DNA from: Tepidiforma sp.
Lineage (GTDB): Bacteria; Chloroflexota; Dehalococcoidia; Tepidiformales; Tepidiformaceae
Assembly: GCF_026003995.1 (NCBI RefSeq)
Contig: NZ_BPIG01000002.1
Coordinates: 186,001 to 250,000 of the forward strand
DNA: 64,000 nt
Reading direction: 5' to 3'
A program made the translations under genes and the position numbers. Of this stretch, positions 3,763-29,737 are shown piece by piece; positions within the stretch are counted from its first letter, which is position 1; each line of letters starts with the position of its first letter. A model generated the notes under the pieces. That model searched no databases and was not told where the DNA came from. It saw only the letters and a program-made list of their open reading frames with translations.

Positions 3763-5381
3763 AAGGCATCCTCAAAGGGCTCGGCGTCACCTTCTCGACC
3801 TTCCTCCGGAAGCCCGTCACCGTCGAATACCCCGACGACCGCAAAGCCCTCCCCGTCCGCCAGCGCTCCTTCCCCGTCCTCGTCTGGGACTTCGACCACG
3901 ACGAGCCGTTCTGCACCGGCTGCAACGTCTGCGTCCGCAACTGCCCCGTCGACTGCATGACGGCGGTCATGATGGACAACCCGAAGTACGCCGAGGGCAC
4001 CAGCAACCGCCGCAAGATCGTCGAGAAATTCTGGATCGACTACGCGCGCTGCATGCGCTGCAACATCTGCGTCGAAGTCTGCCCCTTCGAAGCCATCGTC
4101 ATGGACAACACGTGGAGCGGCCACGAGCACGCCGTCTACGACCGGCGCGACCTCCACATGGACATCGACGAGCTGACGAAGGTCTCGCGCTCCGGCCAGC
4201 TCGCCCGGCCGTTCCGCCCGCAGGACAACATCGAGCTCCTCGAGCGCAAGGCGAAGGGCGAAGAGCCGCCGCCGCCCTCGTTCGTCGGCGCCCGGCCCGA
4301 AGACCGCCAGCGCCAGCTCGAGCGCATCGCCCGCGGCGAGCCCGCCGCCATCCAGGAGCGCGAGCCCGAAAAGCCGAAAGCCGCCGCAGCCGCCGCAGGG
4401 GCAGGCGCTGGCGCCGCCGCGGCCGCCGGCGAGGGCGAAGTCCTCTCCGAATCGAAAATCCGCGCCAAGCGCATGCGCGCCGAGCGCGAGGCAAAAGCCT
4501 ACCTCGACCGCGGCGAACCCGTCCCGCAGGAGATCCTCGACCGCATCGAGTACTACAAGAACCTCAAGCCGGGCCAGGCCGCGCCCGCGCCCGGGGCCGC
4601 CGGCGCCGGCGCGCCCGCCGGCGAAGTCCTCTCCGGCACGAACCCGGACGGCACGATGCGGTTCCCGCCGGGCGTCGGCACCGGCCCGAAGGGCGACCCG
4701 AACAGCTACGAAAAAGTCCGCGCCCGCCGGATGCGCGCCGAGCGGCAGTTCAAGGAGCTGACCGAGAAAGGCGAGCCGATCCCGGACGACCTCGCAAAAA
4801 CGCTCTACGAACTCGGCAGCGACCTCGCCCCCGGCGGCAGCATCTGGCAGACGCTCGCCGCCCAGGGCGGCGGCGGTGGGGCGGGCGCCGCAGCGGCCCC
4901 GCTCTCCGGCACGAACCCGGATGGCACGATGCGGTTCCCGCCGGGCGTCGGCACCGGCCCGAAGGGCGACCCGAACAGCTACGAAAAGGTCCGCGCCCGC
5001 CGGATGCGCGCCGAGCGCCAGTTCAAGGAGCTGACCGAGAAGGGTGAGCCGATCCCGGACGACCTCGCGAAAACGCTCTACGAACTCGGCAGCGACCTCG
5101 CGCCCGGCGGCAGCATCTGGCAGACCCTCGCCGGCCAGGGCGGCGGCGCGGCGGCCCCCGCGGCCGCTGGCGGCGGTTCGGGCGGCGGCGCATGGACGCC
5201 TCCGCCGGGCGTCGGCACCGGTCCGAAGGGCGACCCGAACAGCTTCGAAAAGGTCCGCGCTCGCCGCATGCGCGCCGAGCGCCGCGCCCGCGAAGCGCTC
5301 GCAAAAGGCGAACCCATCCCCGAGGACGTCATCCAGACCATCAAAGAGCTGGGCGGCACCCTGCCGGAGGGCATCGAGTAA
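3759..5381 (+). CDS. nuoI: NADH-quinone oxidoreductase subunit I with a long repeat-bearing C-terminal tail
   Basis: Residues 1 to about 150 are a normal NuoI: two 4Fe-4S motifs, Cys52/55/58/62 (CTGCNVCVRNCP) and Cys98/101/104/108 (CMRCNICVEVCP). They carry electrons to NuoB. The protein then continues to 540 residues, against roughly 150-220 in typical NuoI. The extra 350 residues are Ala/Pro/Gly linkers alternating with four copies of a basic module centred on VRARRMRAER, followed by GEPIP and a short helix. Copies begin near residues 231, 320, 411 and 500; the two middle ones are almost identical at DNA level. No NuoE, F or G gene is next to it. I infer the tail may bind an electron-input partner or the membrane, but nothing in the sequence proves this. 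Confidence 0.93.
   Translation: MKGILKGLGVTFSTFLRKPVTVEYPDDRKALPVRQRSFPVLVWDFDHDEPFCTGCNVCVRNCPVDCMTAVMMDNPKYAEGTSNRRKIVEKFWIDYARCMRCNICVEVCPFEAIVMDNTWSGHEHAVYDRRDLHMDIDELTKVSRSGQLARPFRPQDNIELLERKAKGEEPPPPSFVGARPEDRQRQLERIARGEPAAIQEREPEKPKAAAAAAGAGAGAAAAAGEGEVLSESKIRAKRMRAEREAKAYLDRGEPVPQEILDRIEYYKNLKPGQAAPAPGAAGAGAPAGEVLSGTNPDGTMRFPPGVGTGPKGDPNSYEKVRARRMRAERQFKELTEKGEPIPDDLAKTLYELGSDLAPGGSIWQTLAAQGGGGGAGAAAAPLSGTNPDGTMRFPPGVGTGPKGDPNSYEKVRARRMRAERQFKELTEKGEPIPDDLAKTLYELGSDLAPGGSIWQTLAGQGGGAAAPAAAGGGSGGGAWTPPPGVGTGPKGDPNSFEKVRARRMRAERRAREALAKGEPIPEDVIQTIKELGGTLPEGIE
4629..5138 (+). repeat. Tandem 273-bp direct repeat inside nuoI
   Basis: Two nearly identical in-frame units, beginning at 4629 and 4902 (period 273 bp, 91 codons). 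Each encodes SGTNPDGTMRFPPGVG, the VRARRMRAER module and a block ending GSIWQTLA. They differ at only a few bases. A third, more diverged partial unit follows at about 5205-5330, and a degenerate first one lies at about 4447-4560. The near identity suggests recent duplication. Confidence 0.9.
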
Positions 5382-24989: not shown

Positions 24990-25508
24990 GTGTCCACCCG
25001 CGCCGAACGGTACGCCCACCGCATCGAGGCCCAGGCCGAGGCCCTCTTCCGGCGCATCGTGCTCGCCCCGCCGGGCTCGTGGCACCGCCGCGAGCCTGGC
25101 GGCTGGTCGCCGTCAGTCACCGTCGCCCACATCTGCGAATTCCTCCCCTACTGGTCGAGCCGCCTCGCCGTCCTCGCCTCGAACCCCGGCAGCAGCTGGG
25201 GCCGCCCCGAAGACGACCCCGACCGGCTCGCCGGCATCGAGCCCGGCGCCCTGCTCGAACCGCCCGCCGCCTGCGAACGCCTCCACCGCGTCGCCGCCGC
25301 CGCCAGCGCCGCCATCCGCGCCCTGCCCGAAGCGGCGCTTGACGTGCCGCTGCGCCACGTCTCCGGCGACCCCGCCCTCGGCACCCTCGAGGCGCTCATC
25401 GATCGCGCCCTCTGCAGCCACCTCGAAGCCCACCACGCCCAGCTCCGCCGCCTCCTCGCCCGGCCCCCTTCCCCCACCCCCGTCGCCCCGCCCCGGGTTG
25501 AAGGTTGA
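24990..25508 (+). CDS. DinB/YfiT-like metal-binding protein
   Basis: A 172-residue four-helix protein of the DinB_2 type; members are metal-dependent thiol transferases (for example with bacillithiol or mycothiol). Helix one has ERYAHRIEAQAEALFRRI, then SVTVAHICEFLPYW with a metal-type His, and the final helix has SHLEAHHAQLRRLLA with the other histidines. GTG 24990 is 15 bases after the pdxS stop. The last residues and the TGA stop (25506-25508) lie inside the first GGTTGAA unit of the downstream repeat, so the natural C-terminus may have been altered by it. Confidence 0.72.
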   Translation: MSTRAERYAHRIEAQAEALFRRIVLAPPGSWHRREPGGWSPSVTVAHICEFLPYWSSRLAVLASNPGSSWGRPEDDPDRLAGIEPGALLEPPAACERLHRVAAAASAAIRALPEAALDVPLRHVSGDPALGTLEALIDRALCSHLEAHHAQLRRLLARPPSPTPVAPPRVEG

Positions 25509-25886
25509 AGGTTGGAGGTTGACGAATCCGGCTACCACCGTACGCTCTCTCCCAACTCCCAACTCCCAACTCCCAACTCCCAACTCCCAACTTCGTCGTC
25601 GCGGGGCTCCGTCCCCGCGGAGGGCCGGGAGGCCCACCCGAACGCTCGCATTCACCGCCCTCCCGGTTCCCGGGTTCGAGGTTGAAGGTTGGAGGTTGGA
25701 GGTTGGAGGTTGACGAATCCGGGGGTCACCGCACACTCCCTCCCACCTCCCACCTCCCACCTCCCACCTCCCACCTCGCGCCTCCCGCCTCCCGCTTCCC
25801 GGTTCCCGCCTCCCGCCTCCCGCTTCCCGGTTCCCGGTTCCCGGTTCCCGCCTCCCGCTTCCCGGTTCCCGTCTCCCGCCTCCCCC
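25495..25886. repeat. Composite heptad-repeat element, cluster A (two copies)
   Basis: This fills the 450-base gap before the MFS gene. Copy 1 has four GGTTG units at exact 7-base spacing (25496-25521), a spacer starting CGAATCCGG, then six CCCAACT units (25551-25592). A palindromic module (25600-25619) comes next. Copy 2 has five GGTTG units (25680-25712), the same spacer start, then five CCCACCT units passing into CCCGCCT, CCCGCTT and CCCGGTT variants up to 25886. The arms are roughly complementary. No gene is seen within it. Confidence 0.88.
25600..25619. repeat. REP-like palindrome, copy 1
   Basis: CGCGGGG, a six-base loop CTCCGT, then CCCCGCG, followed by GAGGGCCGGGAGGCCCACCC. The same stretch recurs at 29484 and, inverted, at 29592. 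Confidence 0.85.
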
Positions 25887-25934
25887 TTGCCAAGGACACC
25901 CGAGCTTTCTATAGTCCGTTGCACGAAACAACGG
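25887..25934 (+). promoter_or_regulatory. MFS promoter with an inverted repeat at the start site
   Basis: TTGCCA (25887-25892), a 17-base spacer and TATAGT (25910-25915) make one of the best sigma-70-type promoters in the window. Directly after it CCGTTG-N7-CAACGG (25916-25934) is a perfect inverted repeat covering the expected transcription start near 25922, a classic repressor position. Confidence 0.7.
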
Positions 25935-25962
25935 ATCGGTGCGGCGGTCCCCGGAGGCACCC

Positions 25963-27522
25963 ATGCCCGCCCGAACCTCTGCTCCCTCGAAGTGGCTCAC
26001 CCTCCTCGCCGCCTGCGTCGGCCTCGCCATGCTGATGGTCGACACCTTCATCGTGAACGTCGCCTTCCCCGCCATCGGCCGCGACCTCGGCGCCTCCCTC
26101 AGCGCCGCCGAATGGACCGTCTCCGGCTACGTCCTCATGACCGGCGTCTTCCCCCTCGCCATGGGCCGCCTCGGCGACATGTTCGGGCGGGACCGGGTCT
26201 ACCTCGCGGGGCTGGCCGGGTTCGTGCTCACCTCAGGGCTCTGCGGCCTCGCGCCCGGCATCGAAGCCCTCATCCTCTTCCGCATCCTCCAGGGCATCGC
26301 CGCCGCCGTCATGATGCCGCTCACCCTCTCCATCGTGACCGCCGCCTTCCCGCCGGAGCAGCGCGGCCTCGCCATCGGCATCTGGGGCGGCGTCTCCGGG
26401 CTCGGCCTCATCGCCGGCCCCATCCTCGGCGGCCTCCTCGTCACCGGCGACGAATGGCGCTGGATCTTCCTCATCAACCTCCCCATCGGGCTCGCTGCTG
26501 TCCTCTTCGCCATCCTCTGGATTCCCCCGACGCGCGACCCCGCCGCGCCCCGCACCATCGACTGGGCCGGCCTCGCGGTGCTCTCCGGCGGCCTGCTCCT
26601 CATCCTCTTCGGCGTCAACCGCGGAAACGACCTCGGCTGGGCCTCGCCCGCCATCCTCGCCTGCTTCGCCGCCGGCGCGCTCCTCCTCGCCGCCTTCCCC
26701 GCCATCGAACGCCGCAGCCGCGCGCCGCTCGTCGACCTCGCGCTTTTCCGCAGCGGCCCCTTCGTGATGGCCTCGCTCAGCGCGTTCCTCTTCTCTGCGG
26801 CGGTCTTCGGCTCGCAGCCCTACGCCAGCCTGTTCATGCAGAACTACCTCGGCCTCACGCCGCTGCAGGGCGGCCTCGCGTTCCTCCCCGCTACCGGCCT
26901 CGTCGCCGCCCTCATGCCCGTCTCCGGCATCCTCGGCCAGCGGCTCGGCCACCGCATCCGGCTCATCATCATCGCCGGCTCCCTGTCCGTGGGCCTCTCC
27001 TTCGTCCACCTCCTCCAGCTCGATACCTCCAGCCGCTACCTCGATGGCCTGCTGCCGGCCTTCATCCTGCGCGGCCTCGGCATCGGGCTCGTCATCTCCG
27101 CCACCTCCTACGCCGTCGTCAGCTCATTGCCCGTCGCGAAATCCGGCCTCGCTTCCGGCGCGCTGACGATGGCCCGGAACATCGGCACCTCCGCCGGCGT
27201 CGCCGTCTTCGGCGCCGTCTATCTCCGCAGCATCGAAACCATCCTCCCGCCGCGCCTCGCGGATGCCGGCATCGAACCCCCGCTCGCCTCCGCGCTCACC
27301 GGCAGCGCCACCCGGTTCGTCCCCGCCCCGGCCGAACCGGCAGCGGCCGTGACCGCCGGCGGCATCGTCGATGCCTACGTCGTCCTCGCCGCCGTGGGCA
27401 TCGGCATCTCCGCGCTCGCCATCGCCGCGGCCGCCCTCATCCGCCCCCGGCCCGCTGCCGCGCCGCTCCCGGCTGCCGGCGCCGCTCCCATTCGCCCTGC
27501 CTCCCCCGGCCTCGGCAGCTGA
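25963..27522 (+). CDS. MFS transporter, DHA2 (EmrB/QacA) type
   Basis: Proton-driven exporter of the 14-helix drug-resistance branch, 519 residues. Visible motifs are MVDTFIVNVAFPAIGRDLG in helix 1, motif A GRLGDMFGRDRVY, RILQGIAAAVMMPLTLSIV, and motif C GLGLIAGPILGGLLV. ATG 25963 (MPARTSAPSKW) follows CCGGAGG. No TetR or MarR gene is adjacent, so a regulator for the inverted repeat before it must be elsewhere. The substrate cannot be told. The last residues are Ala/Pro-rich and the gene ends just before another heptad tract. Confidence 0.92.
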   Translation: MPARTSAPSKWLTLLAACVGLAMLMVDTFIVNVAFPAIGRDLGASLSAAEWTVSGYVLMTGVFPLAMGRLGDMFGRDRVYLAGLAGFVLTSGLCGLAPGIEALILFRILQGIAAAVMMPLTLSIVTAAFPPEQRGLAIGIWGGVSGLGLIAGPILGGLLVTGDEWRWIFLINLPIGLAAVLFAILWIPPTRDPAAPRTIDWAGLAVLSGGLLLILFGVNRGNDLGWASPAILACFAAGALLLAAFPAIERRSRAPLVDLALFRSGPFVMASLSAFLFSAAVFGSQPYASLFMQNYLGLTPLQGGLAFLPATGLVAALMPVSGILGQRLGHRIRLIIIAGSLSVGLSFVHLLQLDTSSRYLDGLLPAFILRGLGIGLVISATSYAVVSSLPVAKSGLASGALTMARNIGTSAGVAVFGAVYLRSIETILPPRLADAGIEPPLASALTGSATRFVPAPAEPAAAVTAGGIVDAYVVLAAVGIGISALAIAAAALIRPRPAAAPLPAAGAAPIRPASPGLGS

Positions 27523-27530
27523 GCCCGGGC

Positions 27531-27610
27531 CGCCTCCCGTCTCCCGCCTCCCGTCTCCCGCCTCCCGGTTCCCGCCTCCCGCTTCCCGCCTCCCGCTTCC
27601 CGCCTCCCGG
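27531..27610. repeat. Heptad tract, cluster B (C-arm only)
   Basis: About eleven 7-base units of the types CCCGTCT, CCCGCCT, CCCGGTT and CCCGCTT in direct succession, without a GGTTG arm. It occupies most of the gap between the MFS gene and the next gene, just upstream of the latter's promoter. Confidence 0.8.
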
Positions 27611-27638
27611 AACCCCCGCCGCGCCGCCCGGCGTTCTC

Positions 27639-27644
27639 TATCAT
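27639..27644 (+). promoter_or_regulatory. -10 box of the secreted-protein gene
   Basis: TATCAT (27639-27644), thirty bases before GTG 27674, with GCGGAGG as ribosome site in between. No convincing -35 is present. Confidence 0.4.
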
Positions 27645-27673
27645 GAGTCCGAACCTCGCGGCGGAGGTCCACC

Positions 27674-29413
27674 GTGCCCCGGCGTCTCCTGCTCCCGTTT
27701 GTCGCCGCCCTCCTCGTCGTCACCGCGCTCGCCCGCGCGCCCGAAGCCGGCCGCGCCGCCGCCACCGTCACCTGGACCGGCGCCGGCACGAACGGCCTCT
27801 GGTCGAACCCCGCCAACTGGAGCCCGTCGCTCCCGTCGCCCGGCGATACGCTCGTCTTCCCGCCGGTCACCGGCCAGCTCAGCCCTTCCAACGACCTCGG
27901 CACCGGCCCCTACGCCGCCATCCAGGTCACCGGCGCGGGCTACACCTTCCTCGGCGGCCAGGCCGACGTCACCGGTCAGCTCTCCGTCTCGGCCCCGGGA
28001 ACCGTCCAGGTCGCTGCGCCCATCGGCGGCCCGGGCGGCATCCAGCTCGCCGCCGGCACGCTCCGCATCACCGCGGCGCAGCTGTTCGCCGGGGCGGTCC
28101 AGGTCGCCGGCGGCACCCTCATCGCCGAACACGGCGCCGCCCTCGGCACCGCCGCAGCCGGGACGTCCGTCACAGGCGGCGGCGCGCTCCGGCTCGGGTT
28201 CGGCGTCGACCTCGGCCCGGAGCCGGTCACCATCGCGGGCACCGGCCCATCCGGTGCCGGCGCGCTGCAGGCCCCCTGGGGCGCCGCCGCGCTCGGCGAC
28301 CTCACGCTCGCCGCCGATGCCCGCGTCGCCGTCGCGAACGGCACCCTCCTCGTCGGCGCCCTCAGCGGGCCGCCAACCGCCGCGCTCGAACTGGTCGGCG
28401 GCGGCAAGCTCGAGATCGACGGCGGCACCTTCGCCGGCATCGCCGTCGCCGCCCAGGGCAACCTCACCTGGGACGCCCCCGCCGCCCCTGCCGCCGCCCG
28501 CGCGGGCCGCGACGGCCTTCTTCGCGGCACCGGCGTGCTCGGCTCCCTCGCTGTCACGGGCGGCACCGCCTGGCCCGGCTCCGGCCCCGCCATCGGCACG
28601 CTCGCGGTCGCCGGCCCCGCCGACTTCTCCGGCGGCACGCTCCGCATCGATATCGCCGGAACCGCGCCCGGCATCGGCTACAGCCGGCTGACCGCCGGGT
28701 CGCTCAGCCTCGCCGGCACGCTCCTCGACCTCCGCCTCGCGCCCGGCTACGCGCCCGAACCCGGCGACACGTTCACCATCGTCCAGGTCGGTGCCGGCCC
28801 CGTCGCCGGCACCTTCCGCGACCTGCCCGAAGGCGCCACCTTCGCCCGCGCCGGCTACCGCTGGGCCGTCAGCTACCGCGCCGGCGATGGCAACGACGTC
28901 GTCCTCCGCGTCGTCCGCCAGCTCGAGGCCGACCTCTCCGCCGCCATCAGCGCCGACCCCGCCGCCTACCGGCCGGGCGACCTCCTCGCGCTCCGTCTCA
29001 CCATGGCGAACGCCGGCCCCGATGCCGCCGCCTCGCCCCGCTTCTACGCCTCCGTGCCGCCGGGCACCAGCTTCGTCCGCGTCGACGCCCCCGGCCATAC
29101 CTGCGTGACTCCGCCCTACTTCGCCAACTCCATCACCTGCACCGGCGGCGTCCTCGAGCCCGGGACCTCGCGCGAGATCGTCCTCGTCGTCCGGGTCGAA
29201 CCCGGCACCGCCGGGCCGATTCGCGCCACCGTCGCCGTCGCGTCGAACACCAGCGACCGCCACACCGTCAACGACGGCGCCGCGCTCGATATCCCGCCCG
29301 CCGCGCCGGGCACCTTCCCCTACCGCCGCGTCCTCCCCGGCCTCGCCGCCGACGCCGTCCCCGGGGGTGAGGTTGGAGGTTGGAGGTTGGAGAGGTTGGA
29401 GGTTGGAGGTTGA
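27674..29413 (+). CDS. Secreted beta-rich repeat protein with a DUF11-like domain
   Basis: A 579-residue exported protein. It has a signal peptide (PRRLLLPFVAALLVVTALARA), then WTGAGTNGLWSNPANWSPSLPSPGDTLVFPP, a motif found in autotransporter-type and cell-surface passenger proteins. A long Gly/Ala/Thr-rich beta-helix-like region of short strands follows to about residue 400. A DUF11-like domain (LEADLSAAISADPAAYRPGDLLALRLTMANAGPDAAASP) occupies about 415-545. A surface or adhesion role is likely but unproven. The final residues EVGGWRLERLEVGG are translated from GGTTGGA repeats, and the stop TGA (29411-29413) lies in the repeat. The original end was probably displaced. Confidence 0.8.
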   Translation: MPRRLLLPFVAALLVVTALARAPEAGRAAATVTWTGAGTNGLWSNPANWSPSLPSPGDTLVFPPVTGQLSPSNDLGTGPYAAIQVTGAGYTFLGGQADVTGQLSVSAPGTVQVAAPIGGPGGIQLAAGTLRITAAQLFAGAVQVAGGTLIAEHGAALGTAAAGTSVTGGGALRLGFGVDLGPEPVTIAGTGPSGAGALQAPWGAAALGDLTLAADARVAVANGTLLVGALSGPPTAALELVGGGKLEIDGGTFAGIAVAAQGNLTWDAPAAPAAARAGRDGLLRGTGVLGSLAVTGGTAWPGSGPAIGTLAVAGPADFSGGTLRIDIAGTAPGIGYSRLTAGSLSLAGTLLDLRLAPGYAPEPGDTFTIVQVGAGPVAGTFRDLPEGATFARAGYRWAVSYRAGDGNDVVLRVVRQLEADLSAAISADPAAYRPGDLLALRLTMANAGPDAAASPRFYASVPPGTSFVRVDAPGHTCVTPPYFANSITCTGGVLEPGTSREIVLVVRVEPGTAGPIRATVAVASNTSDRHTVNDGAALDIPPAAPGTFPYRRVLPGLAADAVPGGEVGGWRLERLEVGG

Positions 29414-29483
29414 AGGTCGAAGGTTAACCAGCCCGGCTTCCGCCCTGCGCTCCCTCCCAACTCCCAACTCCCACCTCCGTAGT

Positions 29484-29503
29484 CGCGGGGCTCCGTCCCC
29501 GCG
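29484..29503. repeat. REP-like palindrome, copy 2
   Basis: CGCGGGG-CTCCGT-CCCCGCG, with the same flanking GAGGGCCGG.GAGGCCCACCC and a shared CATTCACC further on as in copy 1, indicating a common module of roughly 85 bp. Confidence 0.85.
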
Positions 29504-29591
29504 GAGGGCCGGCGAGGCCCACCCCGCCCTCGGCATTCACCCGCCTCCCATCTCCCGGTTCCCGGAGCATCCGTTGGGCGCATGGCGCCCC

Positions 29592-29609
29592 GCGGGGACG
29601 GAGCCCCGC
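29592..29609. repeat. REP-like palindrome, inverted copy 3
   Basis: GCGGGGACGGAGCCCCGC: the loop ACGGAG is the reverse complement of CTCCGT, so this copy is in the opposite orientation to the one about 90 bases upstream. Confidence 0.8.
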
Positions 29610-29737
29610 AGCTACGGCCCTTCGCTCGCGCCTGCTGAAGGTTGAAGGTTGACCAGCCCGGCTTCCGCCCTGCGCTCCCTCCCAACTCCCAACGCCCAAC
29701 TCCCAACTCCCGGTTCCCCGTTCGCCGTTCCCGCTGC

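Follow-up and report, generated by a model that had tools for sequence, protein, structure and literature searches.

The repeats described here lie in a 64,000-nucleotide stretch of DNA (the window; G000:C2:186001-250000) from the genome of a Tepidiforma species, G000, and are, on good evidence, related to elements that carry genes of the PF05635 (S23p/IVP) protein family. Gene names, read off the translations alone, give the following order: dinB, a repeat cluster, a major facilitator superfamily (MFS) transporter, an isolated C-rich tract, a gene for a DUF11-like surface protein, a second repeat cluster and tsaD. The original prediction had placed arrays of 7-base units here, GGTTGRA on one side and CCCAACT-like on the other. 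Reading of the sequence and the program Tandem Repeats Finder (TRF) confirmed four composites of the form [GGTTGRA]n–28 nt–[CCCNNCT]n and one lone C-tract, located at 25495-25886, 27530-27609 and 29369-29730. Each composite consists of a G-arm, [GGTTGRA]n, a 28-nt core and a C-arm, [CTCCCNN]n. The core, predicted as a spacer of about 30 bases, measures 28 nt in all copies when counted from GGTTGAC to CTCCC, and the two spacers of the cluster termed C, described as nearly identical, are one base apart. The arms had also been called complementary and able to form a long imperfect hairpin. They do pair, but with approximately one mismatch per 7-mer they are not exact complements; copies 1 to 3 fold better than shuffled sequences (z -2.0, -5.7 and -2.6), copy 4 does not (z 0.2).

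All features are on the plus strand unless stated otherwise, and all C-arms, G-arms 1 to 3 and the lone tract were also detected by TRF. G-arm 1 (25496..25522, GGTTGAA and GGTTGGA units) provides the TGA stop of the DinB-like gene and passes into core 1 (25517..25549), a promoter-like TTGAC-N17-TACGCTC sequence of type I as in the other three copies, followed by C-arm 1 of CTCCCAA units (25549..25592). A type A palindrome tagged by GTCG, a variant of GTAG, comes next, with stems GCGGGG/CCCCGC and GGGCC/GGCCC (25597..25645). The second copy comprises G-arm 2 (25673..25712), core 2 (25708..25740) and C-arm 2 (25739..25884), whose CCCACCT units grade into CCCGCCT, CCCGGTT and CCCGCTT. Within 25673-25884, G-quadruplex potential is present on opposite strands, in the G-arm (GGTTGGAGGTTGG) and in the complement of the CCCAACT-type C-arm (GGGAGTTGGGAG), and just 3' of this C-arm, ahead of the MFS gene, a promoter-like TTGCCA-17-TATAGT is found (25887-25915). 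The lone tract between the MFS and DUF11-like genes (27530..27609) contains CCCGCCT and CCCGTCT units and gave no hairpin on folding. In the second cluster, G-arm 3 (29369..29425), with one 2-nt register slip, supplies the stop codon of the DUF11-like gene; core 3 (29422..29453) and C-arm 3 of CTCCCAA units (29454..29478) follow. A GTAG palindrome of type A (29479..29525) is then separated by a short period-7 filler (29526..29568) from a type B palindrome on the minus strand (29569..29616, tail GGCGCCATGCGCCCAACGGA), with which it forms a head-to-head dimer. The cluster closes with the two units of G-arm 4 (29636..29652), core 4 (29647..29679) and C-arm 4 (29679..29730), where CTCCCAA units degrade to CCCGGTT-like ones.

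Three layers are thus stacked at this locus: heptamer arrays on complementary arms, a two-block core, and GTAG-tagged palindromes in inverted pairs, resembling repetitive extragenic palindromic sequences (REPs) and their inverted doublets, REPINs. The palindromes (25597-25645, 29479-29525 and 29569-29616) had escaped the original prediction, as had the replication polarity and the link to PF05635 described below. The palindrome GTMGTCGCGGGGCTCCGTCCCCGCGG with tail A directly follows C-arms 1 and 3, an inverted copy with tail B precedes G-arm 4, and the pair at 29479-29616 folds with a z of -6.5. Among 32 type I cores, drawn from three species, TTGAC is 94-100% conserved, as are, at 84-100%, the letters A, C, C, T and C of a second block, xACxCTC. 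The blocks are 17 nt apart, and roughly 18 positions in between are variable. By its letters the core looks like a sigma70 promoter that would read into the C-arm; its fit to the -10 box is partial, a scan for consensus promoters does not flag the cores, and the upstream regions of tRNA genes in this genome were too few to yield a house promoter consensus. Matches of the hairpins in Rfam were sub-threshold microRNAs only and were rejected as chance.

The original prediction was to fall if the genome held no other copies, and many were found. GGTTGRAGGTTGRA occurs 289 times in the genome of 2.84 Mb, where roughly 0.1 occurrences are expected from base frequencies (a reversed control is unusable here because the unit is nearly mirror-symmetric). 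The composite pattern GGTTGRN{22,50}CTCCCAACTCCCA has 78 partly overlapping matches and none in the reversed control. Our tract and polarity analysis covers 1.23 Mb of this genome and contains 115 tracts of period 7, grouped with palindromes into 61 clusters, compared with 0-6 tracts per contig for other periods from 4 to 15, the harmonic 14 excepted. Besides type I composites, there is a type II, in which the arms meet in a tight GGTTAT(C/T)CTCC turn. Exact copies of the palindrome number 75 in G000 and 72 in its congener T. flava (G001), and none was present in 39 other relatives; no mobile relatives of it were found in IMG/VR or among plasmids. Across 85,000 species the composite pattern matched only T. 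flava, and the full composite is therefore restricted to the genus.

Copies of the family occur only in the terminus-proximal third of the chromosome, and their polarity follows replication, not genes. With replication direction inferred from GC skew alone, all 72 palindromes of T. flava fall inside one arc of 1.0 Mb (P about 3e-14), centred near 1.24 Mb, where the skew changes sign. Orientation of the composites is 16:1 on one side of this switch and 1:11 on the other (p 4e-6). The corresponding counts in G000 are 26:3 on C2, with negative skew, and 2:23 on C3, with positive skew (p 9e-10). A further Tepidiforma genome, G003, uses GCTTGGA and CCCNGCT units, and its CTCCC tracts follow the skew 165:0 on one side and 307:4 on the other, the latter count including one overlapping locus twice. 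In all three species the G-rich strand of CTCCC-type arrays is the leading-strand sequence, flipping at the terminus. The direction of neighbouring genes is irrelevant (17 convergent, 17 divergent and 13 + 13 co-directional).

Comparison of relatives reveals turnover. In the dinB-tsaD interval, genes and tract sites of T. flava agree with those of G000, whereas units and cores differ. The suggestion of an expansion-prone tract is thus right in part, as unit sequence changes at orthologous sites along with copy number. In G003 both arms are altered together, from GGAGGTT/CCCAACT to GGAGCTT/CCCAGCT. Change in one arm is therefore matched by change in the other, which would be expected of arms that serve as templates for each other or must be able to pair. 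In genome G002 neither the two cargo genes nor the palindromes are present, and the interval between dinB and tsaD has just a 46-bp heptamer tract. The block of MFS transporter and DUF11-like gene in G000 (25509-29736, about 4.4 kb), which heptamer tracts delimit and split, is absent there, so that tsaD comes directly after dinB.

The origin of such arrays is approached through a protein family. One four-helix protein of G003 is encoded within heptamer arrays. PF05635 genes turned up in 13 of the 14 genomes covered by a family search, and most strong matches lie between inverted arrays of a heptamer of their own. The same arrangement exists on cyanobacterial, Azospirillum and Gemmatirosa plasmids, and one Azospirillum PF05635 gene with its heptamers (L233) resides in a 23S rRNA gene, confirmed as large-subunit rRNA. 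Complementarity of the flanks exceeds the 99th percentile of controls at 41 of 67 PF05635 loci. A lag-7 tract is found at 38/67 loci versus 33/424 controls, with other lags scoring 0-4, and in a stricter test exact inverted heptamers flank 6/30 loci versus 0.00055 of random points. A test of shared inverted 9-mer flanks was dropped, as controls scored 18%. Among Chloroflexota, PF05635 is present in 15/15 genomes with GGTTGRA arrays and in 101/385 others (p 4e-9, a value that overstates independence because the 15 genomes represent nine genera). Protein similarity tracks heptamer similarity over 61 loci (Mantel r 0.349, 0/5000), also when GC content is controlled and orthologous sites are removed (partial Mantel r 0.273, 0/3000). 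In the open-access papers searched we found no report that places PF05635 genes outside rRNA between inverted heptamer arrays, and none that matches such arrays to genome-wide tracts.

Two Nostoc plasmids provide reciprocal empty sites, at which gene and arrays are missing together. In homologous operons, each plasmid has an S23p unit where the other is empty. The inserts (420 nt with CAGGAGT units and 503 nt with GGGGAAA-like units) both fall in the gap that separates a stop codon from a start codon and have long terminal stems, and their flanks are 92-99% identical.

Tepidiforma has PF05635 genes too; in G000 they are on C3, on C5 and at C2:773212, and T. flava has three S23p paralogues. Terminal heptamers at loci of the genus, AGGTTGG (L208), AGTTGGG (L218) and CGGGNNN (L219), include the unit types of the window. 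Flank units of these three loci make up 80.2% of tract units in the analysed G000 DNA, compared with 0.5% (maximum 3.1%) for random triples of loci from elsewhere. At one orthologous site, the IVPs of T. flava and G000 are 52% alike and their heptamers differ in flanks that are 88-94% alike; across species the IVPs of the same intergenic site are 52-61% identical with unlike heptamers. The G000 IVP there is closest to an IVP that G004 has at another site with CGGG-type units, and the most similar IVPs of G000 and G004 (66%) come from different sites and share such units. Four Tepidiforma species carry an IVP element at one intergenic site with the same upstream gene (L208, L209, L200 and L201); judged from the differing proteins, heptamers and orientations, this may be an insertion hot spot or a place of very fast turnover. 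The flanks of the IVP gene at L209 (G000 C3:132416) are long inverted GC-rich palindromes (GCGGGATGGCTCGCC...), not heptamers.

Several related arrangements were seen along the way. Near-perfect, almost loopless inverted GGTTGGA arrays lie between genes of genome G223 with no IVP gene (L156-L158). A Roseiflexus-like genome (G220, 5,801,598 bp) and other Chloroflexota have whole intergenic spaces of period-7 tract (L160-L166), the unit of which drifts from GGTTGAA to TTCTCGG and CTCGCCT. An S23p/IVP gene with heptamer arms is located within CRISPR (clustered regularly interspaced short palindromic repeats) operons at L221, L226 and L227 (cas6-cas4, cas10-cmr3). PF05635 proteins have been listed as CRISPR-linked (PMC10910872), which insertion within such operons may explain. 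Elsewhere in the window, at 4629-5283, there is a tandem repeat with a period of 273 bp (2.4 copies, 89% matches).

The ORF-bearing form resembles the intervening sequences (IVSs) of 23S rRNA that contain an S23p open reading frame (ORF), as in Coxiella burnetii (PMC4990558). Both have complementary, stem-forming ends, heptamers stand beside the ORF in Coxiella (a variable number of GACAGAT units preceding it; PMC4990558) and Azospirillum, and the sizes are of one class (420-503 nt in Nostoc, 428-444 nt in Coxiella). IVSs are excised from rRNA transcripts by RNase III, and S23p has a solved relative, XCC0516 (2GSC), that is a pentamer (both PMC4990558). Unlike IVSs, the window copies have no ORF and lie between protein genes; published IVSs are described only inside rRNA, and the papers found draw no link to genome-wide heptamer tracts.

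We propose, as a reading with about an even chance of being correct, that IVS-type selfish elements have ORF-less relatives in the window composites, which would be comparable to miniature inverted-repeat transposable elements and elongated by 7-nt slippage. The suggestion of a non-autonomous element is partly right, as the units are common to arrays flanking an ORF-bearing family. The ORF-bearing form is about 0.4-0.5 kb long, has a PF05635 gene for a four-helix bundle bracketed by inverted arrays of a single heptamer, and is inserted in intergenic DNA or, classically, in 23S rRNA. Such an element would need host transcription, the stem and S23p: transcribed arms would form the terminal stem, and S23p would bind the arms, in the form of RNA or single-stranded DNA, and would favour copying into new sites, including, in trans, that of gene-less copies. 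Recognition of the arms by S23p is proposed because each S23p lineage has its own heptamer. Copies that lost the ORF would persist as composites of the window type. Slippage by 7 nt or arm-templated repair would lengthen, shrink, drift and homogenise the arms, keeping the period and the match of the arms while the sequence turns over. In Tepidiforma, arrays of this sort have built up near the terminus with a single orientation relative to replication, and GTAG palindromes and the promoter-like core accompany them.

Several points weigh against this proposal. The window has no PF05635 gene and hence no ORF between complementary ends, so its copies are at most ORF-less relatives of the IVS-type element. 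A Tepidiforma genome has 1-4 PF05635 genes and scores of arrays. Insertion of an ORF-less copy was never caught, since even the dinB-tsaD interval of G002 has a short tract, and polarity and terminus bias do not follow from an S23p element. The association test took nearby DNA as control and many of its loci are kin by descent, while the control loci for the 80% figure differ from Tepidiforma in base composition. No catalytic site is known in S23p. Finally, IVP genes might instead insert into pre-existing arrays, against which the empty Nostoc sites argue, for Nostoc only.

This last thought belongs to a rather unlikely alternative, in which the arrays are pure long simple-sequence repeats made by slippage with no dedicated protein, and PF05635 genes merely land in them. 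The tracts do have the marks of heptameric repeats of this kind, being tandem, intergenic and variable between relatives. Period 7 is the favoured length in many bacteria, with slippage as the proposed cause (PMC4679880, PMC4692102); orthologous sites vary in unit and tract length, and tracts exist without IVP genes. GGGNATC repeats of Xanthomonas and Nostoc (PMC4692102) and TAACTGA repeats of Beggiatoaceae (PMC4679880) share the period, the intergenic position, the variable unit number and the quadruplex potential of the G-rich strand. Slippage alone, however, does not predict that one gene family is bracketed by matched inverted arms, that protein and heptamer covary, that empty sites lack the gene and its arrays alike, or that there is a conserved core and palindromes. 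The Tepidiforma tracts also differ in being placed on paired arms together with this core and the palindromes, and show strong strand and terminus preferences, both reported as lacking in Xanthomonas (PMC4692102).

It is improbable that the composites are REPINs or bacterial interspersed mosaic elements spread by a REP-associated tyrosine transposase (RAYT), with heptamers as filler. The palindromes themselves look the part: GTAG tag, short palindrome, high copy number (75 + 72 exact copies), two tail types and strongly folding inverted dimers, as in GTAG-tagged REPs and REPINs (PMC3733652, PMC3116915). Unlike those, they are embedded in heptamer arrays and have two dissimilar second hairpins; heptamer tracts without palindromes exist in G003 and elsewhere, and six Tepidiforma genomes (G000-G005), complete T. 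flava included, gave 0 matches to PF01797 (RAYT). An extinct RAYT could account for the palindrome layer only. The four-helix S23p is also a distant homologue of Avd of diversity-generating retroelements (NCBIfam DivGenRetAVD, E 2.5e-8, below its cut-off), a homology noted in PMC10053308 as well; unlike in those systems, no reverse transcriptase (PF00078) was found in four Tepidiforma genomes. The lack of detectable reverse transcriptase or RAYT argues against these enzymes as present-day drivers.

Slightly less probable again are polar sequences that selection maintains for directing FtsK to dif, like FtsK-orienting polar sequences or architecture imparting sequences. Leading-strand polarity that rises toward the terminus in three species and the clustering of all T. 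flava palindromes around the skew switch would suit them. The units, on the other hand, vary among congeners (CCCAACT, CCCAGCT, CCCCGCT) and are few in G002 and G005, an unexpected trait in an essential recognition sequence, and GGTTGRA of the G-arm runs the opposite way. A role as 3' mRNA elements or terminators has very little probability: the composites are intergenic, have stable hairpins and can provide the stop codon of the upstream gene, but they lack a U-tract, a terminator scan finds none at them, and we reject the role because orientation shows no bias to neighbouring genes. An assembly artefact, to which repetitive, GC-rich DNA is open, is refuted for the family by the complete, independently assembled T. 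flava genome with tracts at the same sites.

Heptamer repeats, GTAG REPs and rRNA IVSs are each known separately (PMC4692102, PMC4679880, PMC3733652, PMC4990558), and there is a realistic chance that the link of S23p to heptamers could unite them. With somewhat less than even confidence, we extend our proposal to many of the unexplained heptanucleotide tracts in bacteria, in Chloroflexota, Cyanobacteriota and perhaps Xanthomonas (GGGAATC), as terminal arrays and ORF-less offspring of one selfish family encoding S23p/IVP only, each protein lineage reading its own heptamer and the 23S rRNA IVS being the special case that landed in rRNA. Our results suggest that a common bacterial repeat stems from very small mobile elements whose family connection had not been drawn before. 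Heptamer tracts and rRNA IVSs have been described for decades with no consensus on what they do or where they come from. If both are tied to a single protein family, with repeats paired to it locus by locus, the origin of the tracts becomes testable and PF05635 proteins gain a candidate role; where these proteins are found in operons for CRISPR, conjugation or ribonucleotide reductase, they may simply be hitchhiking. Repeat stability during replication could be studied in Tepidiforma as a natural system, given how the arrays are distributed by strand and around the terminus.

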